64,000 nucleotides of DNA from Ceratodon purpureus (taxonomy: Eukaryota > Streptophyta > Bryopsida > Pseudoditrichales > Ditrichaceae). Under the pieces are notes generated by a model, which had not been told where the DNA came from, did not search any database, and saw only the letters and a list, made by a program, of their open reading frames with translations. The position numbers were made by a program, and so were the translations under genes. The DNA lies in contig CM026423.1 of NCBI GenBank assembly GCA_014871385.1, positions 19,581,690-19,645,689 of the forward strand, written 5' to 3'. Shown one piece after another: positions 1-35,251 of this stretch; positions within the stretch are counted from its first letter, which is position 1, and each line of letters opens with the position of its first letter.

Positions 1-3000
1 CATCAACCCACTTCTTAAACCTCTGAGGAATATCCTTTTTGTCAATGGCACCCTTTACAACCAACTCCCTCCAGAAATACCTCAAGATAGCCCGCTTCAT
101 TGCATTCTCAGCACCAGCTTGGTGGAGAAATGGCTCTTTCTTGGTAAAGGTACCAGCCTTAGGGAAAAAAGGCTTAAAGGCCCTGCCCCACAAAGTGATG
201 GAATGAGCCTCAATCCATGAGCCAATATCATCTACAGGATTAGGTAAATCCTCTGTCCTCAAAACTATCATGTCCTCCTCTACAATCTTGTTATAACGAA
301 TGACTGCCTCCTCCTCTAGCTGCAAATACAATCAATTAAAAAACACATAAGAATACATGACCAATTTCATGATGAAGAGTTATGTTAAACTGCAATAAGC
401 AACAACTGTGAAATGAAATGCAAAAGCTTAAGAATTAGAAACTTACCCCAGCCCAGAATGCAGCCTGATCAACCCAAGGGCGGAGAACTAAATCAGAAGC
501 TGGATGTGGAGGAAAATTGTACTCCTGCCGACTCTCCTTGCTCATATTCCACCACTTCAACCACCTCTCTTTGTACTTGGGAGAAACCTTAGCACTTGAA
601 AAAAGCTGCAACTTTTCAGCGGTCATCTCTGCCTTATTATAAAATATGTCAAAGTGCCGGATAATCTGCAAATAAGAAGTCAAGCATCATCTTAGAATAA
701 GATCATAAAATCTCCAATGACCTTATAGAAATACAAGTTCAATTATAATGAACTTCACGTTCTGATTATAAGGGAGAGTGCACAAAGATACAAATCATTC
801 TGGATATGCAAAGCTCATGACTGCTTACAGAAATTCAATACAGATTCCTCATAACACACTGTCCATTGATCACCTCTGATAAAAGTCAAGATTCACTGAA
901 AGAACAATTTAAAATGAAGGCACCACAATATTAAAAACGAATAGGGACCAAACCTCGAACTCAGCTCCACATCAATAGCACGGACTGATTGAATCAAAGA
1001 CGCCAACCAAAGCCCACACAACAAAAATAATAAAATACCGAAGCTCGAGCTGAGCTCATGAGCCAGAGCAGAGACTTCAGCAAAAAAAAAAACCAACACT
1101 GCTGTGCGGTAGAGCAACCGCATCAGCAAGAACCAAAGTGTTTTGCCCCGGCCGAGGCACCCCTCGGATCCGAGGCATGGTCTGGGGGTGACCTCGGCAC
1201 TCACTCAAAACTCCAACCAGCCACAAAAATGGTTGCCTCTCATACAGGCAACCACAAAATTAAAAAAAAAAGGAACCGCGAGAGAATCTACAGTTGATCC
1301 TCTCCTCGGATCCGAGGACACACAAGACAGTTACAGGGAAGATACCGAAGCTCGAGCTGAGCTCATGAGCCAGAGCAGAGACTTCAGCAACAAAAAAAAA
1401 CCAACACTGCTGTGCGGTATAGCAACCGCATCAGCAAGAACCAAAGTGTTTTGCCCCGGCCGAGGCACCCCTCGGATCCGAGGCATGGTCTGGGGGTGAC
1501 CTCGGCACTCACTCAAAACTCCAACCAGCCACAAAAATGGTTGCCTCTCATACAGGCAACCACAAAATTAAAAAAAAAAGGAACCGCGAGAGAATCTACA
1601 GTTGATCCTCTCCTCGGATCCGAGGACACACAAGACAGTTACAGGGAAGATACCGAAGCTCGAGCTGAGCTCATGAGCCAGAGCAGAGACTTCAGCAACA
1701 AAAAAAAACCAACACTGCTGTGCGGTATAGCAACCGCATCAGCAAGAACCAAAGTGTTTTGCCCCGGCCGAGGCACCCCTCGGATCCGAGGCATGGTCTG
1801 GGGGTGACCTCGGCACTCACTCAAAACTCCAACCAGCCACAAAAATGGTTGCCTCTCATACAGGCAACCACAAAATTAAAAAAAAAAGGAACCGCGAGAG
1901 AATCTACAGTTGATCCTCTCCTCGGATCCGAGGACACACAAGACAGTTACAGGGAAGATACCGAAGCTCGAGCTGAGCTCATGAGCCAGAGCAGAGACTT
2001 AAGCAAAAAAAAAAACCAACACTGCTGTGCGGTATAGCAACCGCATCAGCAAGAACCAAAGTGTTTTGCCCCGGCCGAGGCACCCCTCGGATCCGAGGCA
2101 TGGTCTGGGGGTGACCTCGGCACTCACTCAAAACTCCAACCAGCCACAAAAATGGTTGCCTCTCATACAGGCAACCACAAAATTAAAAAAAAAAGGAACC
2201 GCGAGAGAATCTACAGTTGATCCTCTCCTCGGATCCGAGGACACACAAGACAGTTACAGGGAAGATACCGAAGCTCGAGCTGAGCTCATGAGCCAGAGCA
2301 GAGACTTAAGCAAAAAAAAAACCAACACTGCTGTGCGGTATAGCAACCGCATCAGCAAGAACCAAAGTGTTTTGCCCCGGCCGAGGCACCCCTCGGATCC
2401 GAGGCATGGTCTGGGGGTGACCTCGGCACTCACTCAAAACTCCAACCAGCCACAAAAATGGTTGCCTCTCATACAGGCAACCACAAAATTAAAAAAAAAA
2501 GGAACCGCGAGAGAATCTACAGTTGATCCTCTCCTCGGATCCGAGGACACACAAGACAGTTACAGGGAAGATACCGAAGCTCGAGCTGAGCTCATGAGCC
2601 AGAGCAGAGACTTAAGCAAAAAAAAAACCAACACTGCTGTGCGGTATAGCAACCGCATCAGCAAGAACCAAAGTATTTTGCCCCGGCCGAGGCACCCCTC
2701 GGATCCGAGGCATGGTCTGGGGGTGACCTCGGCACTCACTCAAAACTCCAACCAGCCACAAAAATGGTTGCCTCTCATACAGGCAACCACAAAATTAAAA
2801 AAAAAAGGAAACACAAAGGAATCTGCAAAAAAATTAATACAGGAAGGATCATACCTCCTTGATAAACCCATCACCGTTAGCTGGATTGGCGATCGCAATA
2901 TAACGCTCCAATTGTGTTAATAGTGAGGTTTTTATCGCTTTAACAGCCTTCTTACTAGCTGTAAGGAGCTCAGAGGGACTTCCGTGCCGATCTTCTCCCA

Positions 3001-5934: not shown

Positions 5935-6584
5935 GTGTCTAATTAACACGCTCCCGCAAACATACAACTGACTGAGACGACTGTCATGAAATTGATAAGT
6001 GAGACGTTCATTGTCACTTAGCAGACTATGTGTATCCTCTCCTCTAATCCCTAACACACTTGTATTGTGAGTGGTACCTGCTTTGGATCGTGCCAGTATT
6101 TAAATAAACTATAATATTAGTAAACATTTGAATTATTGCCACTAGACTAAGAAAATGATGTCCAATATCGATCTGTAAAGAGTATGACATAATATTATGT
6201 TTGAATTATGGAGATCCACTAATTATCTTTTCATGACCTGAACGCAATTTAGAACGTCCAATTTAATAAACTGTATCTTAACAAGCCCCTATTTAAATTA
6301 AAGGTCAATCCTACAAGATGAAATTGACGGCTGCTTGTTATATTTGTAGTAACAAAAGACAACCATATTGGCGCTCTCAGCCGCCTAATCACTTTAGTAT
6401 GTCACATACTAAGTAACTAAATTTTGTGCTCTACAGGTCATGCAATATCCACCTGTACAAATTAATTATTTTAAGAACATATAAGGTGGCCATTTATTTA
6501 GCCCCTAAAGAACTATATAGTCCCTACAATGTCTTGGAGTCACAACTCATTGTATTGTAGTGTTCCCAGTCCACCTCTCCTCCA
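5935..6584. promoter_or_regulatory. Divergent intergenic region between ParB-MTase and transposase genes (left copy)
   Basis: About 650 bp separate the ParB-MTase start (minus strand) from the transposase start (plus strand). The open frame of the ParB-MTase side continues into it to about 6057, so an additional 5' exon may lie here. It is strongly conserved with 20319-20967 in the other copy. It probably holds both promoters. I could not single out a TATA box with confidence. Confidence 0.5.
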
Positions 6585-9500
6585 ATGCATGATTGTACTT
6601 CTTCCATCTTCTATAGTACTCTTAGAATGGCCTCTCTGCGAGCTCATGATGGAGGTATTCCTTTTGTGATGTCTGTAGGTCCAGACAATAAGGTAGTTGT
6701 GGAGGAGCGATTGCTTAGTCTCAGGTTTGGATTTAGAGCCGGGACTATTTACGTGGAAGAAGAGGTTTTTGATGATAATGGAGAGATTCGTGAGTGTATA
6801 TTTCAAGTGAAGGATAGTACACCTGATGGTTACATCTGGACTCTTAGCACTGGAATGTTCAAGGTCTATGGATTATCAGATGCACAGATGTCTGAGTCTA
6901 CTGTTCTCTTGACCCCTCCTCCTTCAACGTCTACGGTACCAGTTCCTGGTCGAGCATCTGTAAAAATTGAACCGAGTGACAATTCAGTGCATTTGTTGAG
7001 TGACTCGGATGATGACACTCACAGTGAGATCAAGTTAGGAGATACTAGGTCAAATCCATTCCAGTCTCGGGGGTCTCAGCAGTCAAGTCGTCCATCTCGA
7101 CAGAGCAGTCGTTCTAGTATGTCCGCATCATTGTCTACAGGGCGTCCACCTATTCACCCTACTTCCCAGAAAAATAGAAGCGTCTTGTTTGCCATCAGGA
7201 TGACAGCATCGAGAAGGGGCTCCCGATCAGAACTGTCGCAGATTGATTTTGACACAATTGACCATGAACAAGTGAAGTACTTACCGCCAGTTTATGACGG
7301 AGACAAGATTTTTGAGCTGCCCCCTTTACCTGAAGGAGTTCCAACTCAATTTGGAGGTGGCATGGACGGGATGAGCAAGCAGTATGATGGCCACACCTGG
7401 TGCAAGACCATGACCACAAACATCAAGAACGAGTATGGCCTCACATATCGTAAGTCATCCTGTACTGGACATTTAGAATGTCCCAACCCTAATTGCGATT
7501 ATATCTGCAGGAATAATGGAATGGTAAACAAAACAGAATGGTCAGGTGTAGCCTTAGTACCGTTTTCTGTAGGAGGATCTTCCACGGAGAAGTCTACATT
7601 AGCATGCAAAGTATGTAAGACACCTCCAATTTGTCTAGAATTGTGCGACGCTAGGATCTACCACGTGTCGTCCACAGATAAAGATGCTACCCGTGCGGCC
7701 ATTCATTTAGGACGTCACAGACATCCTGTATCTCAAGGTAGATGTCAGGATTCAATGGACATAATGTTTGAGTGCATTGCTAAGGAGGTTCAGAAGACAC
7801 CTAACGCCAAAAATTCGGCTATCGTCTTAGCGGCCAGCAAGCAGTACCTTGCAGATGCTCTGATCCGTCCGACTGCAGGAGGTACCCATCTACGAGGAGC
7901 ATCTATGGATGCTGTAATGGACCAATTTGAGACTCTTACATCACCAAACATACGGAATTTTGTTTCTGGCTCCAAGAGATTTTTCCGCCAAGGAAGAGGA
8001 GTGACAGACAGCATCCTGGAGCTGAAGGACTATTCGAACTTTGATTTCATCCACCGTAATCAATTCCCTGGACAGAACGAAGGGAAGGTATTTCTGTTCA
8101 AGATGTCCACTGATCGTCCAGGGAGCGGTGTCGATTTAGTGAAGCGCATGCAGCCTGGAGGCGATCTTCAAGACTGCTGGATCATGTTCGATCATGTCAG
8201 GCGCGTAGCGGACTGGACTACTATGGCATGCCACGTTTATGACAGTAAATACTGTAAAGTTATGACGATTGCCCTTTGTGACATGCAATCTGAAGATGCT
8301 GCTGCTCAGGAGTTATTTTGGCTTCAGCTTAATGAAGTTATGCGGAAGAACGGCCATGAAAATACAAATTTCAAAGGATTCATGGCTGACAACGCTGGAG
8401 CCAACTGGCACGCTGTTCGTAAGGTGTATGGGAACGGCGATCCCAATGATCCAATGGAAGAACGTGAACGCACTTGTCTTTTCCACTGGACAAAGTGCTT
8501 GCAGAGGGCAACTTCCCGGAACATCTTGCCAAGCTTTCAAGACCAACACAAAGCTTTGTGCAAAGTATGGAAGGACGCAAAGACCCAAGAGGAAGCAGAC
8601 GCACAGTACAACGTCATCCGCGGGTGGTGGCTTTCGTCAGGCGCCACAACTGAAGAAGGAAGGGGTCATCTAAATGATTGGATGGCTTTCTGGCACTATC
8701 GATATAGACAATGGGGAGGCTCAATGCAGCTTGTAAGTTGAATTGTCTTTAAACCTTTTGTGAAGTATTAGTTAACTTTAATTATTTTTTATAATCATGA
8801 GTATGACATCATTTGTTTTTTTTTTTTTCCCCAGGATCTTACACTTGACGAGAGAGCCGACATGCCTTCGTGCAACCTTGCCGAAACCGTCCACAACAGA
8901 TGGCTTCAACAATCAGGGAATACAATGACATGTTTGTACGAGGCAACAGTGGATGATATGATCCGAGCATTCATGCAGATAACAAGTTACCGGTCTTGGC
9001 TGAAGGGAGGAAAGGGCGGTAAAGGTCCGGACAAAGCAGAACTTCGTTTACGCCACGCTCAACGCTCTGGTGACCCCAAGTTGATTGCTGAGGCAGTGAA
9101 CTCGTACCCGGGAGCCGAGGATATATTGACGAAGAAAGGAGGCTTGGAAGGTGCAGAGATCTTTGGATCTACAAAACGGAAGTTAGATTTGCCGCCCGGT
9201 TCCAGTCATGACTCTCATCGTTATGATACAGTGAATTACTCCATTCCTCGTGATGGCACCAGATCCACCAGAGCACGCATTGAGGAGGCCCTTTCTCAAC
9301 CTGACTCGGGAGTTCAACACACTACTTCAGTGCAGGAGACAGATTGCGACCCCTCTAAGTGGCACATTGCCAGACTGTCCGGCAAGTCTAACCGAAAATG
9401 TCAAGCAATGCAGGCTCATACAAATGAGAAGTGCGATACCCGAGTGCGTCGAGGTACACATGGTACGCCTGCTCCTACATATGTAGGGCTGAAGAAGGAG

Positions 9501-10205
9501 TTCAGAACCGATCGCCATATTTCTACTGACTTCTGGTTTTGCGCTGATGACATTAATAGATGTGTGAAGGGCACGAAGAAGTCGTTTGTGATCGATTGGC
9601 CATCTATCCCGCAGACTTGGCCTGTGAAAAGGGGCACGAACTTGACAATCAAAGAGATTTTGGATCTTGAAGAGGCCGGGTTCCAACTCCAACAACGTGG
9701 AGTACTATCACCTCGACGTCAGTTCCAGGTCTCTGCTAATATGCCGCTTCCAAGGAGTCATTTCCCGGTTCCTGTCGATCCTGATACACACCCGACGACT
9801 CGAAACGGATATGCCATCAGGAGAAGTTCTGACGCTCCTACCTCCGACCACCGCAACAAGTGGAGCAGCGCGGGTCTCATGAACAAGTATTGGATAACAA
9901 GTGTCACATCAATCCCTTATCCAGGATTTGGCTGCGTCATCTCCTTGAAGAGTCCAAGTGAAACCATATATTGTATCACCATCACGGACTTCCCTGGATG
10001 TACTTGCCCCGACTTCATGAAAATGACTTCGGAAACCCTTGGCAAAAGAGGCCAGTGGAAGTACTGCAAGCATGTTTATTATATCTTCCGCTATCTATGT
10101 GAGATGGATTACAAGGTTGATACTTTTATGCACGCCCCTAGCTTCAGCTTCAACGAAGTTATGCGTGTTCTGGAGATGGCCAAAGTTGCTGAACCGCTTG
10201 AGTAG
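6585..10205 (+). CDS. Mutator-type (MULE) transposase with SWIM zinc finger, left copy
   Basis: Two exons, 6585-8732 and 8835-10205, give 1,172 aa. The intron is 102 bp, with GTAAGT donor and a long T-tract before CCCCAG. Visible parts are: a Ser-rich acidic N-terminal third; a Cys/His cluster (about residues 285-385) ending in an H-x-H (GRHRHPV), as in WRKY/GCM1-type DNA-binding domains; a DDE core with candidate D536, D602 and E733 and a C631-x2-H634 motif; and a C-terminal SWIM finger C1105-x-C1107...C1127-x-H1129. The third acidic residue lies in exon 2, so splicing is needed for activity. The protein should bind the terminal repeats and cut and join the element in the nucleus. The start ATG is shared by both copies; a second Met lies 14 codons on. 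It differs from the right copy at roughly 30 residues and shows no break. Confidence 0.85.
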
Positions 10206-10414
10206 TTTTTCTTATGGTTAGACTTTGAAATTAAGTGACCAGTACACTTCAAGAATACATTATATCAATAGCGGAATTGATTTGTTTTTGCTTTGTGCTT
10301 GATTTGGAATCCGCAGAACATAAATAAAGGTCACTATTTTATTTAGTTATTGTTCACTTCTCAAATGTTTTCGTGTGAAAATTAAGAGGAGAACCAATGT
10401 TTTGGCATACTTAG

Positions 10415-10452
10415 GGAATATTCTCTCCTCGGATCCGAGGAGAGAATATTCC
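10415..10452. promoter_or_regulatory. 38-bp perfect palindrome near the transposase-side tip (left copy)
   Basis: Every base pairs with its reverse complement. The core is CCTCGGATCCGAGG (10427-10440), flanked by symmetrical GAATATTCTCT arms. It sits about 330 bp inside the element end and 210 bp after the transposase stop. It could be a protein-binding site, a methylation target or a cruciform/transcription-end element. Both copies keep it at the same place. Confidence 0.8.
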
Positions 10453-10736
10453 TGCATGACCTCAAAATATTCCTTTTCCACTTCCGAGACCACGAAAATG
10501 AGATAAAAAAAATTCCAAAAAATAGGATATCCATTCTGTACTAAACCCTAAACAGTTAGATATTACCTGAAACCGCGCACATTTCATTCATTCCACGGTT
10601 ATAGGGTCTACTTATTTGGCATTCGTATATTCAAGCAAAGTGTCCCAAATCGCTCATCATTGTGTGATTGCTCTCAAAAAAATTCAAAAAATATACGAAA
10701 AACTCAATTTTTTACACAGAAATTGAATTTTTTTGG

Positions 10737-10778
10737 GCTCACCGCTCACTGCTCACCGCTCACCGCTCACAAGATAGC
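10737..10778. repeat. Terminal inverted repeat core of the MULE, left copy, transposase side
   Basis: Identical, as reverse complement, to 16126-16167 and, in the same orientation, to 29423-29464. It consists of nearly five copies of a heptad (CCGCTCA, or TGAGCGG on the other strand, one unit with A for G) and ends in ACAAGATAGC. The repeated heptads suggest several transposase-binding sites side by side. Confidence 0.9.
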
Positions 10779-10785
10779 GTCGCTG

Positions 10786-16107: not shown

Positions 16108-16118
16108 GTGAGATTTGG
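16108..16118. repeat. Target-site duplication of the right MULE copy, left side
   Basis: GTGAGATTTGG, repeated exactly at 29471-29481. The uninterrupted homologue near 40460-40490 (inverted) has a single related sequence here, which confirms the duplication. Eleven bases fall in the 8-11-bp range known for Mutator-like elements. Confidence 0.85.
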
Positions 16119-16125
16119 CAGCGAC

Positions 16126-16167
16126 GCTATCTTGTGAGCGGTGAGCGGTGAGCAGTGAGCGGTGAGC
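16126..16167. repeat. Terminal inverted repeat core, right MULE copy, transposase side
   Basis: Starts GCTATCTTGTGAGCGG and continues with TGAGCGG/TGAGCAG heptads. It is preceded by seven bases (CAGCGAC) shared with the left copy but not with the opposite tip. Confidence 0.9.
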
Positions 16168-16452
16168 CCAAAAAAATTCAATTTCTGTGTAAAAATTTGA
16201 GTTTTTCGTATATTTTTTGAATTTTTTTGAGAGCAATCACACAATGATGAGCGATTTGGGACACTTTGCTTGAATATACGAATGCCAAATAAGTAGACCC
16301 TATAACCGTGGAATGAATGAAATGTGCGTGGTTTCAGGTAATATCTAACTGTTTAGGGTTTAATACAGAATGGATATCCTATTTTTTTGAATTTTTTTTA
16401 TGTCATTTTTGTGGTCTCGGAAGTGGAGAAAGAATATTCTGAGGTCATCAGA

Positions 16453-16488
16453 GAATATTCTCTCCTCGGATCCGAGGAGAGAATATTC
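16453..16488. promoter_or_regulatory. 36-bp perfect palindrome near the transposase-side tip (right copy)
   Basis: The same site as 10415-10452 of the left copy, one base pair shorter at each end. The 14-bp core is at 16464-16477 and the GAATATTC arms are intact. The outermost mismatch beyond the palindrome is the only difference, while the surrounding non-coding DNA shows more changes. Confidence 0.8.
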
Positions 16489-16698
16489 CCTAAGTATGCC
16501 AAAACATTGGTTCTCTTCTTAATTTTCACACGAACACATTTGAGAAGTGAACAATAACTAAATAAAATAGTGACCTTTATTTATGTTCTGCGGATTCCAA
16601 ATCCAGCACAAAGCAAAAACAAATCAATTCCGCTATTGATATAATGTATTCTTAAATTGTACTGGTCACTCAATTTCAAAGTCTAACCATAAGAAAAA

Positions 16699-19600
16699 CT
16701 ACTGAAGCGGTTCAGCAACTTTGGCCATCTCCAGAACACGCATAACTTCGTTGAAGCTGAAGCTAGGGGCGTGCATAAAAGTATCAACCTTGTAATCCAT
16801 CTCACATAGATAGCGGAAGATATAATAAACATGTTTGCAGTACTTCCACTGGCCTCTTTTGCCAAGGGTTTCCGAAGTCATTTTCATGAAGTCGGGGCAA
16901 GTACATCCAGGGAAGTCCGTGATGGTGATACAATATATGGTTTCACTGGGACTCTTCAAGGAGATGACGCAGCCAAATCCTGGATATGGAATCGATGTGA
17001 CACTTGTTATCCAATACTTGTTCATGAGACCCGCGCTGCTCCACTTGTTGCGGTGCTCGGAGGTAGGAGCGTCAGAACTTCTCCTGATGGCATATCCGTT
17101 TCGAGTCGTCGGGTGTGTATCAGGATCGACAGGAACCGGGAAATGACTCCTTGGAAGCGGCATATTAGCAGCAACCTGGAACTGACGTCGAGGTGATAGT
17201 ACTCCACGTTGTTGGAGTTGAAACCCGGCCTCCTCAAGATCCAAAATCTCTTTGATGGTCAAATTTGTGCCCCTTTTCACAGGCCAAGTCTGCGGGATAG
17301 ATGGCCAATCGATCACAAACGACTTCTTTGTGCCTTTCACACATCTATTAATGTCATCGGCGCAAAACCAGAAGTCAGTAGAAATATGACGATCGGTTCT
17401 GAACTCCTTCTTCATGCCTACATATGTAGGAGCAGGCGTACCATGTGTACCTCGGCGCACTCGGGTATCACACTTCTCATTCGTATGAGCCTGCATTGCT
17501 TGGCATTTTCGGTTAGACTTGCCGGACAGTCTGGCAATGTGCCACTTAGAGGGGTCGCAATCTGTCTCCTGCACTGAAGTAGTGTGTTGAACACCCGAGT
17601 CAGGTTGAGAAAGGGCCTCCTCAATGCGTGCTCTGGTGGACCTCGTGCCATCACGAGGAATGGAGTAATTCACTGTATCATAACGATGAGAGTCATGACT
17701 GGAACCGGGAGGCAAATCTAACTTCCGTTTTGTAGATCCAAAGATCTCTGCACCTTCCAAGCCACCTTTCTTCGTCAATATATCCTCCGCTCCCGGGTAG
17801 GAGTTCACTGCCTCAGCAATCAACTTGGGGTCACCAGAGCGTTGAGCGTGCCGTAAACGAAGTTCTGCTCTGTCCGGACCTTTACCGCCCTTTCCTCCTT
17901 TCAGCCAAGACCGGTAACTTGTGATCTGCATGAATGCTCGGATCATATCATCCACTGTTGCCTCGTACAAACATGTCATTGTATTTCCTGATTGTTGAAG
18001 CCATCTGTTGTGGACCGTTTCGGCAAGGTTGCAGGAAGGCATGTCGGCTCTCTCGTCAAGGGTAAGATCCTGGGAAAAAAAATGAAACAAATGATGTCAT
18101 TTTCAGGATTATAAAAAACAATTCAAGTATACTAATACTAGATGAAAGGTTAAAAGACAATTCAACTTACCAGCTGCATTGAGCCTCCCCATTGTCTGTA
18201 TCGATAGTGCCAGAAAGCCATCCAATCATTTAGATGACCCCTTCCTTCTTCTGTTGTGGCGCCTGACGAAAGCCACCACCCGCGGATGACGTTGTACTGT
18301 GCGTCTGCTTCCTCCTGGGACTTTGCGTCCTTCCATACTTTGCACAAAGCTTTGTGTTGGTCTTGAAAGCTTGGCAAGATGTTCCGGGAAGTTGCCCTCT
18401 GCAAGCACTTTGTCCAGTGGAAAAGACAAGTGCGTTCACGTTCTTCCATTGGATCATTGGGATCGCCGTTCCCATACACCTTACGAACAGCGTGCCAGTT
18501 GGCTCCAGCGTTGTCAGCCATGAATCCTTTGAAATTAGTATTTTCAAGGCCGTTCTTCCGCATAACTTCATTAAGCTGAAGCCAAAATAACTCCTGAGCA
18601 GCAGCATCTTCGGATTGCATGTCACAAAGGGCAATCGTCAGAACTTTACAGTACTTACTGTCATAAACGTGGCATGCCATAGTGGTCCAGTCAGCTACGC
18701 GCTTGACATGGTCAAACATGATCCAACAGTCTTGAAGATCGCCTCCAGGCTGCATGCGCTTCACCAAATCCACACCGCTTCCTGGACGATCAGTGGACAT
18801 CTTGAATAGAAATACCTTGCCTTCGTTCTGTCCAGGGAATTGATTACGATGGATAAAATCAAAGTTGGAGTAGTCCTTCAGCTCCAGGATGCTGTCTGTC
18901 ACTCCTCTTCCTTGGCGAAAAAACCTTTTCGAGCCAGAAACGAAATTGCGTATATTCGGTGATGTAAGAGTCTCAAACTGGTCCATTACAGCATCCATAG
19001 ATGCTCCTCGAAGATGATTACCTCCTGCAGTTGGACGGATCAGAGCATCGGCAAGGTACTGCTTGCTGGCCGCTAAGACGATAGCAGAATTCTTGGCGTT
19101 AGGTGTCTTCTGAACCTCCTTAGCAATGCACTCAAACATTACGTCCATTGAATCCTGACATCTACCTTGAGATACAGGATGTCTGTGACGTCCTAAATGA
19201 ATGGCCGCACGGGTAACATCTTTATCTGCGGATGATACATGGTAGATCCTAGCCTCGCACAGTGCTAGACAAATTGGAGGTGTCTTACATACTTTGCATG
19301 CTAATGTAGATTTCTCGGTGGGAGATCCTCCCACAGAAAACGGTACGAAGGCTACACCTGACCATTCTGTGCTGTTTACCATTCCATTATTCCTGCAGAT
19401 ATAATCGCAACTACGGTTGGGACATTTTAAATGTCCAGTACAGGATGACTTACGATATGTGAGGCCATACTCGTTCTTGATGTTTGTGGTCATGGTCTTG
19501 CACCAGGTGTGGCCATCATACTGCTTGCTCATCCCGTCCATGCCACCTCCAAATTGAGGTGGAACGCCTTCAGGTAAAGGGGGCAGCTCAAAAATCTTGT

Positions 19601-20318
19601 CTCCGTCATAAACTGGCGGTAAATACTTCACTTGTTCATGGTCGATTGTGTCAAAATCAATCTGCGACAGTTCTGATCGGGAGCCCCTTCTCGATGCCGT
19701 CATCCTGATGGCAAACAAGACGCTTCTATTTTTTTGGGAAGCAGGGTGAATAGGTGGACGCCCTGTAGACAATGATGCGGACATACTAGAACGACTGCTC
19801 TGTCCAGATGGGTGACTTGACTGCTGAGACCCCCGAGACTGGAATGGATTTGACCTAGTGTCTCCTAGCTTGATTTCACTGTGAGTGTCATCATCCGAGT
19901 CACTCAACAAATGCACTGAATTGTCACTCGGTTCTATTTTGACAGATGCTCGACCAGGAACTGGAACAGTAGACGTTGAAGGAGGAGGGGTCAAAAGAAC
20001 AGTAGACTCAGACATCTGTGCATCTGATAATCCATAGACCTTGAACATTCCAGTGCTAAGAGTCCACATGTAACCATCAGGTGTACTATCCTTCACTTGG
20101 AATATACACTCACGAATCTCTCCATTATCATCGAAGATCTCTTCTTCCACGTAAATGGTCCCGGCTCTAAAACCAAACCTTAAACTAAGTAGTCGCTCCT
20201 CGACAAGTACCTTATTGTCTGGACCTACAGACATCACTAATGGAATACCCCCGTCATGAGCTCGCAGAGAGGCCATTCTAAGAGTACTATAGAAGATAGA
20301 AGAAGTACAATCATGCAT
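16699..20318 (-). CDS. Mutator-type (MULE) transposase with SWIM zinc finger, right copy
   Basis: Exon 1 is 18171-20318 and exon 2 is 16699-18069 on the minus strand, 1,172 aa. Exon lengths equal those of the left copy to the base. The DDE candidates, C-x2-H, H-x-H and SWIM ligands are all unchanged. The reading frame happens to stay open upstream to 20477 in this copy only, so the conserved ATG at 20318 is preferred. Changes between the copies concentrate in the Ser-rich linker and the Cys-rich N-terminal region. The divergent neighbour is the ParB-MTase gene, 649 bp away start to start. The protein should be the element's own mobilising enzyme. Confidence 0.85.
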
Positions 20319-20967
20319 TGGAGGAGAGGTGGACTGGGAATACAACAATACAATGACTTGTGACTCCAAGACATTGGAGAGACTATATAGTTCTTCGGGG
20401 GCTAAATAAATTGGCACCTTACATGTTCTTTTAATAAATAATTTGTACAGGTGGATATTGCATGACCTGTAGAGCACAATATTTAGTTACTTAGTATCTG
20501 ACATACTAAAGTGATTAGGCGGCTGAGAGCGCCAATATGGTTATCTTTTGCTACTACAAATATAACAAGCAGCCGTCAATTTAATCTTCTAGGATTGACC
20601 TTTAATTTAAATAGGAGTTTGTTAAGATACAGTTTATTAAATTGGACGTTATAATTTGCGTCCAGGTCATCAAACGATAATTAGTGGATCTCTATAATTC
20701 AAACATAATATTCTGTCATACTCTTTACAGATCGATACTGGACTTCATTGAAGGATCTAGTGGCAATAATTCAAATGTTTACTAATATTATTGTTTTTTA
20801 AAATACTGGCACGATCCAAATCAGGTACCACTCACAATACAAGTGTTTTAAGGATTAGAGGAGAGGATACACATACTCTGCTAAGTGACAATGATGGTCT
20901 CACTTATCAAGTTCATGACAATCCTCTCAGTCAGTTGTATGTTTGCGGGAGCGTGTTACTGAGACAC
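20319..20967. promoter_or_regulatory. Divergent intergenic region between transposase and ParB-MTase genes (right copy)
   Basis: Counterpart of 5935-6584. The stretch 20820-20967 is an open frame in phase with the first annotated ParB-MTase exon, preceded by a plausible acceptor (AATCAG at about 20824). Its translation contains GEDTHTLLSD, which resembles the DTH motifs of later exons. The true gene start may therefore lie in an upstream exon within this region. Confidence 0.45.
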
Positions 20968-23900
20968 ATGAGGGACGGGGAAGAACCTAGTACAAGAGTG
21001 CCTAGGGCTCCTAGATCATGTACGACTAGAGGTAGAGGGAGAAGGCGAGGTTCTCATTTTGGTAATTCGAAGCAGATCACATACCAGAGGAGACGAAAGG
21101 AGAAGGATGCTCTCAGCCGTATCGCAGAAGTGGATTGTTTAGCAGATGAATCTGGCCATCTAAAAATCAAGGAATTGGCTACAATATGTCAAGTATACCA
21201 GACTTATTTGTTTGCTCACTAGTTTTCTTCTTTATGTGAATTTCAAGTTTATCATGTTTGATTTATTATTTCATTAGGTCTAACCCGCATAAGCTCTTGC
21301 TATGGACGATTTCTCTGAGGAATTAGCTTAGCCATTGAACTTTTCGTTCTAGAGTTCCCGTAAGTTAGTGAGATGCATTTGGTGAGTTTGATGGTGTCAC
21401 ACTCAAGTAATTTCCGAGCAGACTGAATAGGGAGGCGTGACGCAATTATGTGCATTGACTGCAGGGCCTCTCGGTTGACTCAGACATTGGTGGTACGGGG
21501 TTCAGACCTCGAAGTACAGCCTCAGTCGCAGAAGGAGCTGACCTCGGTGGCACGAGCGAGGAGCCGGCTGCTCTCACTTCTACGGTGTTCTCTCAAGATC
21601 AGGTAAGTACTCTTTCTCATAACTACTTCGGTTTGCATTATACTTGCAATGAATAGAACTGTGGACAAATTCTAGTCATGGTCATGATCACAAAAGGCGA
21701 CATTAGCTTCAGATGCAGCACCCGAACCCTAGGTCTCAGATTTCAGGGAATCTTTTATAATCACTTGTTGGGTAATATGAATTTCGCATTACAGGGGATC
21801 GAGGTCCTTGATAGGTCGAGAGAGGACCACTCAGAACTCCAAATTCTGGGAGACACCCACCTGGTTGCGGTCTCAGAAGTGTTGAGCAGAGCAACGAATC
21901 CCAGCCACTTCGAAGAGGTAAGTTTCATTCAGTGCTCTCCGACTTTGGTGCAAACGAGAAGAACACAGGAATAGCTGTAAGGTTTCTGATAATCCGAAAA
22001 CAGATGTCACTGCTGCATGAGTGTATGAGAGTACGAGTGACATTCATATGATAACAAATTCTTGGGATATCAGGTGTTGGTTATGGGTAATTTTGTTTCC
22101 AGCACCATGTCTCGACTCGACTTATGAGACTAATGCCAAGTCTGAGTACTCTAGCTATTTCAATCAAACAAGCTAGTCGTTGAATACTCGTCGTTACCGT
22201 GTCAATCAGTCAGTACTGAAGCCTAATCTGCCTGTGCCTGGTACGATAGACCTGGTTGTGTTGGTGCCGATGCATGGTATCCTGAGCTGAATGGTTACTT
22301 GGAGCTGAATGGTTACAACAGCTGAATGGTTACTTGGAAATAGATGTCGTCCTTTGATTGCGAGCTTGAATTTAGCTAGGCTATGCATGATAATTATTGA
22401 TTAAAAACCTTAATCTCATTAGACTTCGCTTCCAGTCCCCACTTGCCTGGAGCTGAATCTCGATTTCGTGTGTTCTAGAAAGAGCTGTTCTTAGAAAGTA
22501 TCTTTGATCTGTCATACAGTTAGGCTGATTGAGATAGTCTGTCGTTGGTTCTAGTGTTCAGCTTTCATTCTCTCTTTGCAGGCGGTCGAGGAGCTTCGTA
22601 ACCCGAAGGAGGACCGTTCTAATCTCGAATCTCTACAAGATACCCATTCGGTTGCCTTCCCGGAGCCCGAGAGGACAGTTGCGGATTCTAGTCAGATGGA
22701 GGCAGTAAGTGCTACCTGGATTAACCTTTTAATGAGAAGTTAGTTTCTGCGATGCTAGGTGTCGGAGTGGCTACTTAGGATTCTTTCAGCTTGGATCGAA
22801 TTAAAATTTCAGACTCATACTTTGAGGGCTTTGTCTAGGATTTAGTGTGCTCAATAGTTACTTGGAACTTGATTTGGTCCCTCTCTTGCAAGAGGGAAAT
22901 TCTTGTTTATCTTGCATTGAAATAATTCAATTTTATCTACTTGTTTGCAGATGAGCAGCGACCATGGGATGGAGGAGGTACAATGCACAAACGCTGACAT
23001 GGAGAATAGCTTAGGAGGCATGGCTGCAATGGAGAACATGCTACGCAGGGAGGTGATGGGAACCTCGCACCTTGCACTTCAGAGTGCGATGGATATGCCA
23101 GGTATGGAGATTGACGTGCCACTCTGCAGAATGATCCCCATGAAGGATGTCAGGGAGCCATTGCAGAACGACATTCAAAAGCTCAAGGCAGAATTCACGC
23201 GTGGATACAGGCGGGCATCGGCATGCTTCTATCTCTCATTGAGGAGTTTTAGGATGGAGGAATCATATGTCACTGACACGGACAGGGCATCGTGGTCAGA
23301 GTTATGGCGCCAAGAGGATCTTGAGTTTGAGGGGCGCTTGCTTTCTACGCCGGGGTTGGAGAAATTCTCCAACCGATTCTTCTATGTTTGGGACGGGAAT
23401 CATCGACACATTGCATGGACTGAGAGCATCAACGCCCTTCATCAACAAGATGCAGAATTCCATGTTTCTGTTCGCTCTGTTATTATCAATGTCACACCTC
23501 AAAATTGCAATATGATGTTGCACGCCATGACTGATTGGAACAAGTAATTATTCCAAACATTTCTCTATTTTTTATTATGGCTTTGTAGATTCTGTATAAA
23601 CTTGTCCATTTACTCGCATTGCTTATGTCAATTTTGGTTTTATAAATATCAATGAATATTTGTGTAATGTGTTTCAGGAAGAATCAGGTAGACCACGTGG
23701 CGCAGCACTGGACCCATGAGTTGAGGCGTGTCCAACAGCTCGGTTTGTTGGACTTTGACCAATTGAAAGGATTGGTGAAGGAGGAGGACTTGCAGGCAAG
23801 CATTCTAGAGTGGACACGAACCAAAAACAAGAAATGGTATCATCTTACGATTGATGCTTTCATCAACTTTTTATACGAGGTATGCAACATTATTTTCCTA

Positions 23901-26900
23901 TCCTTGCTACGTCCTCTAATAATGTAAGTACTCTACAACTAACTATATAGTACTCTGCATCCAGAGGGAGATATTAGCCGCTCAAGAGGAGGCAATTCGA
24001 GCATACAAAGACTCTTTGATAACAGGACTGGGAGAAGACCGGGTGGGAAGTCCCTCTGAGCTCCTTACAGCTAGTAAGAAGGCTGTTAAAGTGATTAAAA
24101 CATCGCTACACACGCGATTGGAGCGCTTCGTAGCAATCGCCAATCCAGCTAACGGTGATGGATTTATCAAAGAGGTATGCGGTATTGCTATCAATGTTTG
24201 AGAAAATGTTGTTTGAGGTGGCACCCCCGATCCATGCCTCGGATCCGAGGGGTGCCCATGCGCATGCTTGGTGAATCACTTTTTTTGCAACTTGAGCTCC
24301 AGCCGAGTGCTGGAGACTCAAAGCTTTTGTTTTATCTCTTGATATTATCATTCTATTGTTTGTTGCTTGCGGTGAGATGCATGGCTACAGCCTGCACTGA
24401 GCAGGCAAAGACGTCGGTTTCGTTTTTTATTTTTGAGGCAAGCCTCACTGGGAGGCCTGCGCTTTGGTCGAAAACCTTGCCTTTCTCTGAAACCTGCAGC
24501 CACCGAATTGGTGTCCTCGGATCCGAGGCGAGAATATTCTCGAAATTCCTCTGGTCCGAAATGTCGAGAACACCAGGTGGCTGCGGGTGTTGAAGCAGCG
24601 CCTTCCTGTTTTTTTTTGTTTTCACGCTAGCCTCACTTGGAGGCTTGCGGTATTGCTATCAATGTATGAGAAAATGTTGGTTGAGGTGGCACCCCCGATC
24701 CATGCCTCGGATCCGAGGGGTGCCCATGCGCATGCTTGCTGAATCACTTTTTTTGCAGCTTGAGCTCCAGCCGAGTGCTGGAGACTCAAAGCTTTTGTTT
24801 TATCTCTTGATATTATCATTCTATTGTTTGTTGCTTGCGGTGAGATGCATGGCTACAGCCTGCACTGAGCAGGCAAAGACGTCGGTTTCGTTTTTTATTT
24901 TTGAGGCAAGCCTCACTGGGAGGCCTGCGCTTTGGTCGAAAACCTTGCCTTTCTCTGAAACCTGCAGCCACCGAATTGGTGTCCTCGGATCCGAGGCGAG
25001 AATATTCTCGAAATTCCTCTGGTCCGAAATGTCGAGAACACCAGGTGGCTGCGGGTGTTGAAGCAGCGCCTTCCTGTTTTTTTTTGTTTTCACGCTAGCC
25101 TCACTTGGAGGCTTGCGGTATTGCTATCAATGTATGAGAAAATGTTGGTTGAGGTGGCACCCCCGATCCATGCCTCGGATCCGAGGGGTGCCCATGCGCA
25201 TGCTTGCTGAATCACTTTTTTTGCAGCTTGAGCTCCAGCCGAGTGCTGGAGACTCAAAGCTTTTGTTTTATCTCTTGATATTATCATTCTATTGTTTGTT
25301 GCTTGCGGTGAGATGCATGGCTACAGCCTGCACTGAGCAGGCAAAGACGTCGGTTAAGTTTTTTATTTTTGAGGCGAGCCTCACTGGGAGGCCTGCGCTT
25401 TGGTCGAAAATCTTGCGATTCTGAGGAATGTGCAGCCACCGATATGGTGTTCTCGGTTTCCTATAAGTTTTGTTGTGTGGGGCTTTGGTTGGCGCCTTTT
25501 TTCCAATCAGTCTGTGCTATGGATGTGGAGCTCAGCTGGAGTTTTTGTCCGTATTTGTTTGTAGTTTTGTGGTGCCTTAAATTTAATTTTTACAGTCACT
25601 GAATTGTGAGCTTAATCTGAGGTGATTAATGGACAGTCTGCAATAAGGAATTTGTATTGCATTTTTCTAAACAGTCTAGAGCTTTGCAATTTCAGTATGA
25701 TTTTTATCTCTCTGGACTCTTCCTTATAATCTGAATGTGAAGTTCAGTGTAATTGAACTTTAATTTCTATAAGTTCATTTGAGATGATTTGATCTTATTC
25801 TAAGATGATGCTTGTCTTGTTTTCTTTGCTTGTTTCCAGTGCTTCTCCCGTTTAGAGTATGTTATTGTGTACTCTCTTTTTATTTGTAATGCATAGTTCC
25901 ACTTAGTTGTTCATTAATATCAAGTACATTATATAGAATGATATGAATTTTTACTAAGATGATGCTTGACTTGTTTGCAGATCATCCGGCACTTTGACAT
26001 ATTCTATATGAATGCAGAGATGACCCCTGAGAAGTTGCAGCTTTTTTCAAGTGCGAAGGTTTCTGCCAAGTACAAAGAGAGGTGGTTGAAGTGGTGGAAC
26101 ATGAGCAAGGAGAGTCGACAGGAGTACAATTTTCCTCCTCATCCAGCTTCCGATTTAGTTCTCCGGCCTTGGGTTGATCAGGCTGCCTTTTGGGCTGGGG
26201 TAAGTTTCTAATTCTTATACTTTTGCATTTCTTTTCACTGATGTTGCTTATTGCAGTATAACATAACTTTTCATCATAAAAATGCTAATGTATTCATATG
26301 TGTTTTGTAATTGATTGTATTTGCAGCTAGAGGAGGAGGCAGTCATTCGTTATGCCAAGATTGTAGAGGAGGACATGATAGTTTTGAGGACAGAGGATTT
26401 ACCTAATCCTGTAGATGATATTGGCTCATGGATTGAGGCTCATTCCATCACTTTGTGGGGAAAAGCCTTTAAGCCTTTTTTCCCCAAGGCAGGAACCTTT
26501 ACCAAGAAAGAGCCATTTCTCCACCAAGCTGGAGCTGAGAATGCTATGAAGCGGGCTATCTTGAGGTATTTCTGGAGGGAATTGGTTGTAAAGGGTGCCA
26601 TTGATAGGAAGGATATTCCTCAGAGGTTTAAGAAATGGGTGGATGTTTCTAGCAGTGAGTGCATTTTTACAGATTATCAGAGGAGGCATTTTGGAGCTCC
26701 TCATCTCCTTCAGTGTCCTTGGTACCTGGAGCTCAAGGAGAATGATCAATGCCCAGGGGAAGAGAGAGGTCTTAAGGCAAGTTGTGAGAATTTGATGAAG
26801 CAGCTTGGGGATGAGAACATGGTGGGTTTGGAGGAGGATACCTCGCAGGTTGGTGATGATGCCGCTCTTTCTGAGAGACAGAAGAAGAAGGTGGCTGAGA

Positions 26901-28640
26901 GGAAAGCAAAGACAGAGGCAAAGATGAAGGAGAAGGAAGACAAGAAGAAGGAGAAGGAGCAGGAAGCTAAGCTCAAGAAGGAAGTGGCAGCAAGGAACAA
27001 GGAATTGGCCAAGTTAGTTTTGAAGGAAGGGCCAGAGAAGTTGATGTCTCATGTTGGCATCTCTCCTTCAGGCAGTAGCATGCAGGCTGCCATAGTTCCT
27101 TTACTTCCTCAGGTGCCTCAGTTTTCTACCCCCATGCCTTCTCAGACTATCTACACGATTCCATGCTCGCAGTTGGATGAGGTAGACACTAGTGTTGAGA
27201 TCATCAATGATTGCCCTATGGGCATTTTGGATTTGTTTACTTCTTTATCCGAGGGGGATGTGCCTGAGATTTGGAGCAAGATCAAGGATTGGATCCAGGA
27301 CCATCACGGTAGCAAGGCTAGGAATTTTGGGGGTGAGGAGGCTGAGGCTGCTGTGGACCTGATCATTTTTGATGTGCCAGAGGATTTACCAGTTCCAGGT
27401 TTAGGGCAAGATGGTGAGATTCCCTCCTGGAACAAGCACCCCAAGATTTCAGCAGGGAAAAAAATGGAGTCTTCATGGATTAAGGCCCATTTTGAGTTTG
27501 CTATGCAGTTTCTGCAAGATGATGGAGCTTTGATTGTTTTTTACCCTGATTCAAAGTTCATTTCGAATGAGCTTATTTCCTGGGCAGAGTGGGCTAACTT
27601 CCAGGAAGAGGCCAAGTGGTTTGCAATCAATGGCCTGCCATTGACTATTCCAGACCGTTATCCACGCCAGCACAAGACTTTTATGGTCAAGTGCTTCATC
27701 AAGATGGAGAATGTCGAGGAGGAAGTTCCAAGGTCTATGTTCCAGTTTCATGATAGGGCTGAGCTTGGTGCCTATGGCATCAAGCTCTCCTCTGATGGAC
27801 ATTGCACTAATTTGATTACTGCAGATTCTCTGACAATTAATTCAGAGACTGGGGAGCCATTCAGAGGAGCACGGGAGAAGACTTCTAACCTCTTGCAGGC
27901 TCTAATTGATTTGTGCACGGTTGAGAATGACATTGTCATGGATCTCACAGCTTCTACAGGTATTAATTTGTTTTAGTTTTTTGATTAAAAGAATTTTGTA
28001 TTTCGTTTTCTAATTTTTACTTATATTTTGGAGTTCTAATTTCTGTGCAGGTGCTTCCATTCGAGCTTCCAAGAGTCTCCGGCGTCATGTCATAGGCTTT
28101 GAGCCTGACACCACCTTGTACAAGCAGGTGTTGCTGCCTCTTCTTCCAAGCACGGAGGAGGTTGAGTCTACTCCAATTCCTGTGCCTTCACCGAAGAAGA
28201 AGCGTTCGGTTGAGTCAGACGATGAGCCTGAGAGGAAGACTGCCCCCAAGCGTTCTTGTAAGTAAGTCTTTACATTCATTTGTCCTTTGTTTATTTTTTT
28301 TTAAAGTTTAGTTCAATATTTATTAGACTGTAAAATTGTCATGTGCAGTCGGAAGAAAGCGTTGAAGAATGACATTGGTGGCTCTATTATCTCGCGCCAT
28401 CTTAGCAAGATAAGGAGTCCAGTTAGACCTTTAGAGCTTCCACATTATGCAGAGATGCAAGCTCAAGCCTATTTAGCTGCTTCTTCTCCATCTATTTCAT
28501 CTGATAGAGATAGCATTTGTCGTGATGCTGAGATTTATCTTGACATAGCTGCAGAAGTTGCCAGAGTGGTATTATCTAGTGATAGCGATTCTTATCATGG
28601 TTGGATTGATACTCGTAGCGATGACGAGATGTCTTCTTGA
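20968..28640 (+). CDS. ParB/sulfiredoxin-like domain fused to a degenerate adenine DNA methyltransferase-like domain (MULE cargo gene)
   Basis: Predicted exons: 20968-21192, 21465-21602, 21795-21917, 22582-22704, 22951-23543, 23678-23879, 23965-24174, 25981-26199, 26327-27959, 28051-28261, 28349-28640. All have GT-AG borders and the phases join without a stop to 1,322 aa. Residues 1-75 are basic (RGRGRRRGS). Exons 3 and 4 encode a duplicated 41-aa module. About residues 258-400 fit a ParB/Srx fold: IPMKDVREP with a following helix, then WDGNHRHIAW (DGNHR 351-355). Residues 790-846 are a Lys/Glu coil. About 930-1190 fit an N6_N4 methyltransferase with motif IV before motif I: the position of DPPY reads DVPE (960-963), and motif I reads DLTASTG (1150-1156) then GFEPD. 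A basic nuclear-signal-like tail follows. ParB-methylase fusions are known from phages and bacteria; occurrence in a plant MULE is inferred here. Exact function is unknown, and catalysis is doubtful. Confidence 0.7.
24175..25440. repeat. Tandem array, 468-bp unit, with CCTCGGATCCGAGG palindromes, in intron of the right ParB-MTase gene
   Basis: About 2.7 units. Perfect 14-bp palindromes occur at 24237, 24515, 24705, 24983 and 25173; the last partial unit has lost its second site. A second palindrome, CGAGAATATTCTCG, follows at 24529 and 24997. The array sits in the same intron as the 306-308-bp array of the other copy. The units resemble each other mainly around the two palindromes (ACCCCC..CCATG before and GGGTGCC after the first; GTGT before the second). 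Confidence 0.9.
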
Positions 28641-28894
28641 TCATTGCATATTTACTCTATATTGTTATGTTTTCCCTACTTATATATTATAGGATTGTTT
28701 TGGCGTTGGATTTTATATTTTGCCTCAACCTCACTTTATTCTACTTCTTTATGAATTTCTATACCAGCCATAGGAGTAATTAACTCTCAGTTAATTAATT
28801 CCGCACCTTTAAATCAGTCATCCAACAATTAGATAAAAAATTATACATCCCAAAAAACTAGAAGCCGTAATAGCCGTTCTGTATATCTGTTCTT

Positions 28895-29205
28895 CACCTA
28901 ATTTTGTTTTACTTTTTTTTATCTTTCCTCTTTTTCTCCTATATGTACTTATTCATTGTTTTTTATTTTTTTGTTAATTCTTTTTTATGTTTTATCTTTT
29001 CTTTTTTTGTTTTCTTTTTTTTTATTCTTTCATTTTCTTCTTTCGTTGTTTTTGTTTTTTTTTTTTTTTTCTTCTTATTTTCCTTCATTTTTTTATTTTC
29101 TTCTCTATATCCCTTTTCATTATTTATTTTAATCTTTTTTTTTTCTTTTATTTAGTTATTTTTTTCTCTTTTCTAATTTTTTTCTTTATTTTTTTTTTTT
29201 CCTCT
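28895..29205. repeat. Pyrimidine (T-rich) tract between ParB-MTase 3' end and MULE tip
   Basis: About 310 bp almost free of purine runs on the plus strand, dominated by T with scattered C and TTCTT motifs. The phenylalanine-rich frames over it are composition artefacts. The homologous segment of the left copy lies outside the window. Confidence 0.8.
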
Positions 29206-29422
29206 TGGTCTTCATGGCGTGGAATTGATAAGATAAACGAAAAAAAAATCACAGTTTATTCGGGTATGAATCGGGTGCAAATTTCTACATTTATCAATTT
29301 AGAAGCCATTTTTTTGGAATATACCCTAAAACACCTTCCACGGTCATAGGTCCCATATATGCCATGTCATGCAAAATCATCTCAAAATATCAAATAAATA
29401 GTCAAAAAATTGAAAATTTAGT

Positions 29423-29464
29423 GCTCACCGCTCACTGCTCACCGCTCACCGCTCACAAGATAGC
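29423..29464. repeat. Terminal inverted repeat core, right MULE copy, ParB-MTase side
   Basis: Perfect inverted match over 42 bp to 16126-16167. The last six bases before the duplication (ATTCCC) differ from the other tip, so the extreme ends are not symmetrical. Confidence 0.9.
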
Positions 29465-29481
29465 ATTCCCGTGAGATTTGG

Positions 29482-34408: not shown

Positions 34409-35251
34409 ATGAGGCTTCTCAGTGCCTGGAATGAGGCCTTTGGACCCGTGGCAAAGATCTCTCTCCACTTTGAAGAAGAACGAGAGCGTCTTAAGCACGT
34501 GAACCGCAAGCTTGCGGAGAAAGAGGACAATTACGACTGTGCAGTTCATGAGTATGAGCAATCGCGAGGCGTGCTCTCGGCTATTCAAGAAGAAGCAGAA
34601 CTACAGCCAGAACAATGTGTACACACCAAGTCCCTTTCAAAAATCTGTGAGTCCCTCGTGAATTCATGGTATAAGAATGTTGAAGCAGCTCGCAAACATA
34701 TAGGAGCATGGGATTTTAAATCCAAGCGTCAAACTATAGTCGTGGCGAAGCTTGGTATAGAGTTGGCAACGATAGAAGCTGATTACAAGGCCACGTGTGC
34801 TGCAGGGTTGTCATAACGGACGGACATGGGCAAAATTTCCGGACACGGACGGACGGACGGACGGACCGGTCGGTCCGGGGTGAAAATCGGACATATTCTA
34901 TGAATATTCCTAATTTTTTCTCAAATATGCTCGAATATTCTCGAATATTCTCTTATGGACCGGACATAACCCTTAACGGACGGACGAGCGGACCGGACGG
35001 ACGGTCCGGTCCTTATGTCCCATGAACAACCTTGGTGTGCTGAAATCGACTCCAAATACAACGATCTGGATGCACCTTTGATCCATGATAGATTTAGAGT
35101 GTGCTCTCTGAGTCCACAGTTTGAGAATATGTCAGCAATTACCGTGGAAACTATTAATTTTGAAACATCGCTTTTTTCCTCTAATCAGTGTCTGAAGACC
35201 ATGACAATACTTGTGAACAATTGTATGTGGGACCAATCAGTAGACATTTAG
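34409..35251 (+). pseudogene. Unidentified coiled-coil reading frame interrupted by a hAT MITE
   Basis: The frame starting at 34409 (open upstream to about 34361) encodes a charged helical segment (EEERERLKHVNRKLAEKEDN) and continues to the hAT insertion at 34803. The insertion plus one duplication is 240 bp, a multiple of three, and the same frame continues after 35043 to a stop at 35249-35251. The host sequence was thus a continuous open frame of some 200 codons before the insertion. GC content is above its surroundings, so this may be a remnant or captured exon of a host gene. I do not recognise the family. Confidence 0.4.
34803..35034. mobile_element. hAT-type MITE, 232 bp, with 8-bp target duplication
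   Basis: Ends are CAGGGTTGTCAT and the inverse CAAGGTTGTTCAT. They are flanked by GTGTGCTG at 34795-34802 and again at 35035-35042, the 8-bp duplication expected for hAT. The interior is rich in GGAC repeats (GGACGGACGGACGGAC) and GAATATTCTC motifs, with no coding capacity. Confidence 0.85.

Follow-up and report, generated by a model that had tools for sequence, protein, structure and literature searches.

A 64,000-nt stretch of the Ceratodon purpureus genome (assembly GCA_014871385.1, contig CM026423.1, positions 19,581,690–19,645,689 of the forward strand; hereafter the window) contains a complete element (copy 1) and part of a second (copy 2) of one transposon family, each carrying a transposase gene and a divergent, intron-rich second gene (gene 2). 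The element is bounded by inverted tips and a target site duplication. Comparison of the copies shows purifying selection on both genes, in gene 2 for the part preceding a methylase-like domain, and a 14-bp palindrome, CCTCGGATCCGAGG, forms arrays that are confined to the two copies within the window. We tentatively propose, as a possibility short of a probability, that this is a MULE-type two-gene plant transposon, in which the gene 2 protein may be a DNA-binding factor acting on CCTCGGATCCGAGG in anti-silencing or regulation, by analogy with VANC of the Arabidopsis VANDAL elements.

Direct comparison within the window agrees with the outline of copy 1 given in an initial annotation of this DNA, which had reported an exact 11-bp duplication, 42-bp inverted tips, a transposase and a divergent gene of 11 exons, both open. 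The duplication, GTGAGATTTGG, is exact over 11 bp and has two occurrences only in the 64-kb window. The tips pair perfectly for 42 bp (16126–16167 with 29423–29464) and are 77% identical across 92 nt; seven bases on the left (CAGCGAC) and six on the right lie external to them and match at two of six paired positions. The transposase gene is open over 1172 codons in two exons separated by a GT..AG intron. Gene 2 of copy 1 is open over 1322 codons in 11 exons (20968–28640, plus strand), with GT..AG boundaries in all 10 introns. The start codons of both genes were chosen by us, that of gene 2 being the first in-frame ATG (20968), and exon 1 of gene 2 is supported solely by copy 2. A long T-rich tract (28961–29201) adjoins the gene-2-side tip of copy 1.

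Copy 2, which the annotation had overlooked, carries both genes in the same order as copy 1. Homology between the copies sets in precisely at the tip (position 10785 corresponds to element base 1) on the one side visible in the window; because of this, copy 2 looks like a separate insertion rather than shared flanking DNA. Its far end and target duplication lie beyond the window. The eight complete gene 2 exons shared by the copies are identical in length, with GT..AG introns kept, and the 717 shared codons contain no stops, gaps or frame-breaking indels.

The transposase contains D536, D602, C631-x2-H634 and E733 in this order, with CxC-x19-CxH at 1105–1129 near the C terminus. This arrangement agrees with what we take to be the signatures of MULE transposases (DDE with CxxH, and a SWIM-type CxCxnCxH). 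The duplication is also of MULE length, 8–11 bp (PMC6446971; this and the other papers cited are drawn on from part of their text), and the 42-bp perfect tips are of a length usual for MULE inverted repeats, which range from tens to hundreds of bp. The earlier description as a “giant MULE” with a “SWIM/DDE” transposase is based on the duplication length and the ordered residue patterns, and finds no counterpart among Pfam or PHROGs profiles. The transposase matched no PHROGs family at E-values up to 10, and its sole NCBIfam match was udk (E 0.049, far under the cut-off). As a profile match is absent, we refer to the element as MULE-type, a plausible assignment by duplication length and residue patterns, rather than as a proven MULE.

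Features of the two element copies in the window.
Feature	Positions	Strand	Details
Copy 1, complete element	16119–29470	.	13352 bp; duplication and tips, alignment to window
Left target site duplication, GTGAGATTTGG	16108–16118	.	Identical to 29471–29481
Right target site duplication, GTGAGATTTGG	29471–29481	.	Identical to 16108–16118
Left terminal inverted repeat	16126–16167	+	42 bp perfect; holds 7-bp GTGAGCG tandem
Right terminal inverted repeat	29423–29464	-	42 bp perfect
Copy 1 subterminal palindrome	16453–16488	.	36 bp perfect; CCTCGGATCCGAGG core at 16464
Transposase exon 1	18171–20318	-	D536, D602, CxxH 631–634
Transposase exon 2	16699–18069	-	E733; CxC-x19-CxH 1105–1129
Gene 2 exon 1	20968–21192	+	
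Gene 2 exon 2	21465–21602	+	
Gene 2 exon 3	21795–21917	+	Resembles exon 4
Gene 2 exon 4	22582–22704	+	
Gene 2 exon 5	22951–23543	+	FFYVWDGNHR at 23377–23406, sole ParB-like signature
Gene 2 exon 6	23678–23879	+	
Gene 2 exon 7	23965–24174	+	
Copy 1 intron 7 tandem array	24178–25456	+	Period 468 x 2.7; 5 palindromes (24237, 24515, 24705, 24983, 25173)
Gene 2 exon 8	25981–26199	+	
Gene 2 exon 9	26327–27959	+	N6/N4 methylase-like domain; motif IV DVPE 27371–27382, motif I from 27941
Gene 2 exon 10	28051–28261	+	End of methylase-like domain
Gene 2 exon 11	28349–28640	+	With stop
Copy 2, same family	1–10785	-	Antiparallel to copy 1, cut by window edge; element-versus-window alignment
Copy 2 terminal repeat, transposase side	10737–10778	-	Identical over 42 bp
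Copy 2 subterminal palindrome	10415–10452	.	38 bp perfect
Copy 2 transposase exon 1	6585–8732	+	
Copy 2 transposase exon 2	8835–10205	+	
Copy 2 gene 2	1–5934	-	Eight complete exons (1–8) plus the initial 319 bases of exon 9
Copy 2 intron 7 tandem array	1035–2810	-	Period 308 x 5.8; 11 palindromes

The window holds 18 sites of the palindrome CCTCGGATCCGAGG, where 0.10 would be expected, and every one is perfect though two mismatches were allowed. Twelve sites are in copy 2 and six in copy 1, with none in the 39.9 kb of the window outside the two copies. The great majority (16/18) reside in the intron 7 arrays of gene 2 (11 in copy 2, five in copy 1), and one per copy is located near the transposase-side tip, as part of a longer perfect palindrome of 36 bp in copy 1 and 38 bp in copy 2. 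At E < 1e-4, the 468-bp array unit of copy 1 and the 308-bp unit of copy 2 match in two stretches only (42 bp at 88% and 25 bp at 92% identity), both of which hold palindromes. Because the units match only around the palindromes, the array sequence appears to have turned over while the palindromes stayed, a pattern that would suit a binding site under selection; alternatively, the palindromes themselves may drive repeat formation. A GAATATTC / TCTCGAATAT repeat cluster is present outside the elements at 34902–34952, and its 8-mer also flanks some of the palindromes within them.

The closest functional parallel is with the VANDALs, in which an extra gene also lies beside the transposase and a short motif is tandemly repeated in introns and other non-coding DNA. 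VANC21 binds such motifs upstream of VANA21 and within VANC21 and VANB21 introns; repeat turnover between copies is seen there as it is here, and VANC21 binding accompanies loss of methylation (PMC5735166, PMC10398659). The likeness drawn here is one of function, and the effect on methylation is known for VANC only. In contrast to the 14-bp palindrome of the present family, the VANC motifs described in these texts are 8–9 bases long and non-palindromic, and no methylase fold is described there for VANC. We suggest that the transposase moves the element and that the gene 2 protein would be its sequence-specific DNA-binding factor, built on a bacterial-type N6/N4 methylase domain. Its target would be CCTCGGATCCGAGG, in its own intron 7 arrays and near the transposase-side tip, which it would bind probably as a dimer. 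Binding would then keep the non-coding DNA of the element free of host silencing, or control expression of the element, as VANC does for VANDAL.

Gene 2 could instead encode a transposition co-factor that aids synapsis or integration through contact with the transposase or with the subterminal palindrome, the arrays being enhancers or by-products. Accessory proteins with such roles have precedents in mudrB and the TnpA-type proteins of CACTA elements. The divergent two-gene layout, the conservation of both genes together and the subterminal position of the longest palindromes (36 and 38 bp) are all in keeping with this role. However, 16 of the 18 sites are buried well inside an intron, and in copy 1 a tip palindrome is found on the transposase side only. 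We consider a co-factor somewhat unlikely.

The C-terminal part of gene 2 is related to the beta-class N6/N4 DNA methylases and has the beta-class order of motifs, a relationship that we regard as real on the strength of several profile comparisons. This region matches PF01555 with an E-value of 1.4e-6 (28.8 bits, above the curated cut-off of 26.7), the PADLOC model MTase_II (E 2e-9, covering profile positions 28–246 of 260) and the PHROG DNA methyltransferase family (E 1.7e-6). The match to the NCBIfam CcrM model is far under its cut-off (E 0.002), and PDB gave weak matches only, the top one also being CcrM (E 0.03). Against a profile of six phage methylases, gene 2 scored above 1000 of 1000 shuffles, the matched stretch being the motif I region only.

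Within the domain, two motifs depart from the usual pattern. In the aligned column, motif IV reads DVPE in gene 2, outside the (D/N/S)PP(Y/F/W) consensus, and DPPY or SPPY in the six phage methylases; these six carry the motif by choice and give no independent count, having been retained from seven coding sequences after one (L001) was dropped for want of [DNS]PP[YFW]. L001, annotated as an adenine-specific methyltransferase and the best phage match of gene 2 by tblastn, has DIPY at this position, and the first proline is therefore not invariant. The aromatic residue of motif IV is present in the six phage methylases, L001 and CcrM, and is replaced by glutamate in gene 2. Motif I is DLTASTG, in which the S-adenosylmethionine (SAM) loop is STG rather than the GSG found in 6/6 phage proteins and in L001, and the FxGxG pattern is absent. 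Thus the loss of that proline is not in itself exceptional; what sets gene 2 apart is the glutamate that substitutes for the aromatic residue, together with the STG loop. Changes of this kind in motifs IV and I usually abolish activity. Since gene 2 combines DVPE with STG, catalysis by its methylase-like domain is doubtful. The label “DNA methyltransferase-like”, as applied earlier, would therefore stand as a statement of homology (PF01555, MTase_II), but is weakened as a description of an active enzyme.

If the domain were active after all, gene 2 would be an N6-adenine or N4-cytosine methylase marking the element's own DNA, which the host or the transposase would then treat differently, as in phages. 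In its favor, gene 2 is clearly homologous to the type II methylases of the beta class and shares their order of motifs, and the DIPY of the phage protein L001 adds a little weight to it at the expense of the DNA-binding factor. There are also precedents for methylases in mobile DNA, namely in marine viruses, whose mariner-type elements include methylase genes (PMC3627910), and in retrotransposons, which carry DNMTs or Dam-like enzymes (PMC5890265). Against this, motif IV has lost its aromatic residue to glutamate and one proline to valine, and the STG of motif I differs from the GSG of all seven phage proteins. On balance, an active methylase seems unlikely.

CpG observed/expected drops sharply to 0.13–0.27 at 25457–27999, a region that takes in exons 8–9 and the 3′ portion of intron 7, compared with 0.44–1.03 for the remaining 500-bp windows across copy 1; the counterpart in copy 2 (1–1000) has 0.14–0.41. 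The trough was considered as a mark of past methylation, an idea dropped as TG+CA is not raised there. The methylase half of the gene may have a separate origin or a different codon choice.

The “ParB-like” identity also assigned to gene 2 finds no support, with Pfam, PDB, an 18-domain phage profile and hhalign all negative, and we give this half of the protein no assignment. The label stems from one short stretch in exon 5, FFYVWDGNHRHIAW, found in both copies, in which DGNHR recalls the GxHR signature of ParB; GxxR is the nucleotide-contact motif. A phmmer search of PDB found no ParB match, and the score of gene 2 against a profile of 18 phage ParB domains fell within the range of its 500 shuffles. 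These 18 coding sequences come from 16 phage loci, which were chosen among 60 listed of 327 records; two more ParB-annotated coding sequences of these loci (L010, L015) were left out. Comparison of gene 2 with the same profile by hhalign gave 1.7% probability over 13 residues.

Selection was assessed from Nei-Gojobori counts between copy 1 and copy 2. Between the two transposases there are 104 synonymous and 31 non-synonymous changes over 1172 codons, and the ratio of non-synonymous to synonymous rates (dN/dS) is 0.076. For gene 2, the corresponding figures are 87.8 and 60.2 over 717 codons, with dN/dS 0.164 (Fisher p 5e-26); by part, the ratio is 0.475 in exons 1–4, 0.108 in exons 5–6 and 0.107 in exons 7–9. 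The seven aligned introns (intron 7 left out) are 72–92% identical. Both genes are thus under purifying selection, and gene 2 has been maintained within the family, staying protein-coding while the copies diverged. The proposal that this eukaryotic transposon has a partner gene dedicated to it gains from this, as copy 2 shares the tip, both genes and the introns, and its gene 2 is likewise constrained. The annotation had named relatives lacking gene 2, or a single capture of an unrelated host gene, as grounds for abandoning the idea; the one relative at hand, copy 2, speaks in its favor.

The same comparison bears on whether gene 2 is a passenger, that is, a host or bacterial gene captured once (transduplication) and shared by recent descent without function. 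MULEs are prone to acquire fragments of host genes (PMC6446971), and just two copies are seen here. Such a passenger would not be expected to show purifying selection over 717 codons free of stops and frame-breaking indels, nor eight shared exons of equal length beside seven aligned introns that differ by 8–28%, and we judge this very unlikely. Most improbable is a local segmental duplication in place of two insertions: the copies are 5.3 kb apart in opposite orientations, but similarity stops at the element tip on the one visible side, copy 1 is flanked by an exact 11-bp duplication of its own, and the arrays differ in both unit and number.

Synonymous divergence (dS) between the copies (16699–27959 compared with 1–10205) is uneven, at 0.11 in gene 2 exons 1–4, 0.15 in the transposase, 0.26 in exons 5–6 and 0.30 in exons 7–9, and could reflect recombination between element lineages. 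Exons 3 and 4 of gene 2, of 41 codons each, are alike (BLOSUM62 score 60, reached by 0 of 2000 shuffles) and probably arose by exon duplication.

Several points weigh against a DNA-binding factor of a MULE-type element. The transposase, searched both as separate exons and as the spliced protein, matched no Pfam family at E-values up to 10, neither a MULE profile (PF10551 or related) nor a SWIM profile. The AlphaFold2 (AF2) model of its core, from a two-row alignment, has a predicted local distance difference test (pLDDT) score of 39.9 and is too poor to use; that of exon 5, built likewise, failed (pLDDT 35.3) and is unusable. Gene 2 had no ParB match in Pfam, where the best match of exons 5–6 was Utp13 (E 0.0024, under the cut-off). 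The reader of CCTCGGATCCGAGG, if there is one, could be the transposase or a host factor, and the sites are lopsided, copy 1 having none close to its gene-2-side tip (the copy 2 counterpart lies beyond the window). That catalysis is lost is guessed from the motifs, and the change of proline to valine alone need not matter given the phage DIPY. Copy 2 ends before the methylase domain, so that the selection figure covers only the upstream part of gene 2, and the family comparison amounts to two copies in one window, a single comparison.

A more specific form of the proposal would have a non-catalytic reader, derived from a bacterial methylase, recognize the 14-bp intron palindrome and shield the element from host silencing, and so constitute a second, independently evolved sequence-specific anti-silencing system in plant DNA transposons; this we hold to be rather unlikely. 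The transposon anti-silencing factors described in detail, in the literature as far as available to us, are those of the Arabidopsis VANDALs. If true, a plant element that pairs palindromic arrays of its own with a bacterial-type partner would suggest a repeated origin of such systems. It would offer a model to be tested in genetically tractable plants, as well as a new means of addressing plant chromatin in a sequence-specific way. The entry of bacterial DNA-modification domains into eukaryotic mobile DNA, and the loss or change of their catalysis, are further questions on which it bears.

Additional genes, in several groups in the opposite direction, are known from other MULEs, which carry SET in Phytophthora, antisense PMD in plants, or ULP1/KAONASHI (PMC6446971, PMC13317346, PMC12730594). 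None of these is reported, in the text available, as N6/N4 methylase-like or ParB-like; PMC6446971, as far as its available text goes, has nothing on ParB and words on methylation only in a sentence on VANC. DNA methylase domains do occur in other eukaryotic mobile DNA, as adenine or cytosine methylases in DIRS and other retrotransposons, and in the mariners of marine viruses (PMC5890265, PMC3627910). The present family differs from these in being MULE-type, in having a separate intron-rich gene and in its altered catalytic motif. Fungal DNA transposons with TET/JBP dioxygenases likewise combine a DNA transposon with an epigenetic enzyme, but a different one and in other hosts (PMC12730594). 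A survey of the ParB fold that includes eukaryotes reports, in the portion available, N6/N4 methylase fusions in phages (PMC12704722). Gene 2 resembles these fusions in its C-terminal methylase domain with DGNHR upstream, recalling GxHR, and differs in lacking significant ParB similarity, in its changed catalytic motifs and in its size of 1322 residues in 11 exons. The open-access literature, covered in part (Repbase entries and most subscription papers lie outside), yielded no MULE-type element for which an N6/N4 methylase-like gene, a ParB-like gene or palindromic intron arrays are described. Within that scope, MULEs with extra genes (PMD, SET, ULP1) and retroelements or viral mariners with methylases are already known, and the combination of a MULE-type element, a methylase-like gene and palindrome arrays appears to be new.

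Searches for relatives covered viral, bacterial and archaeal sequence, where absence says little. A tblastn search of phages with gene 2 from exon 5 onward (1119 of 1322 residues) gave weak matches only, the best being a methylase (E 0.08) among the 20 listed of 150 records at E-values up to 10. Peptide-pattern scans of viral contigs with the exon 5 protein, transposase exon 1 and the exon 9 protein, and of bacterial and archaeal genome contigs with transposase exon 1, confirmed no relative, and the tip pattern had no matches in viral contigs.

Three other genes were recognized in the window: at 45310–46785 a long exon belonging to an auxin efflux carrier of the PIN type (Mem_trans, 3.1e-53; PDB, E 3e-129), which is indicative of a plant, a D123/CDC123 gene at 56085–57155 (1.8e-94), and part of a tubulin-family gene at 59114–59761 (6.7e-13).

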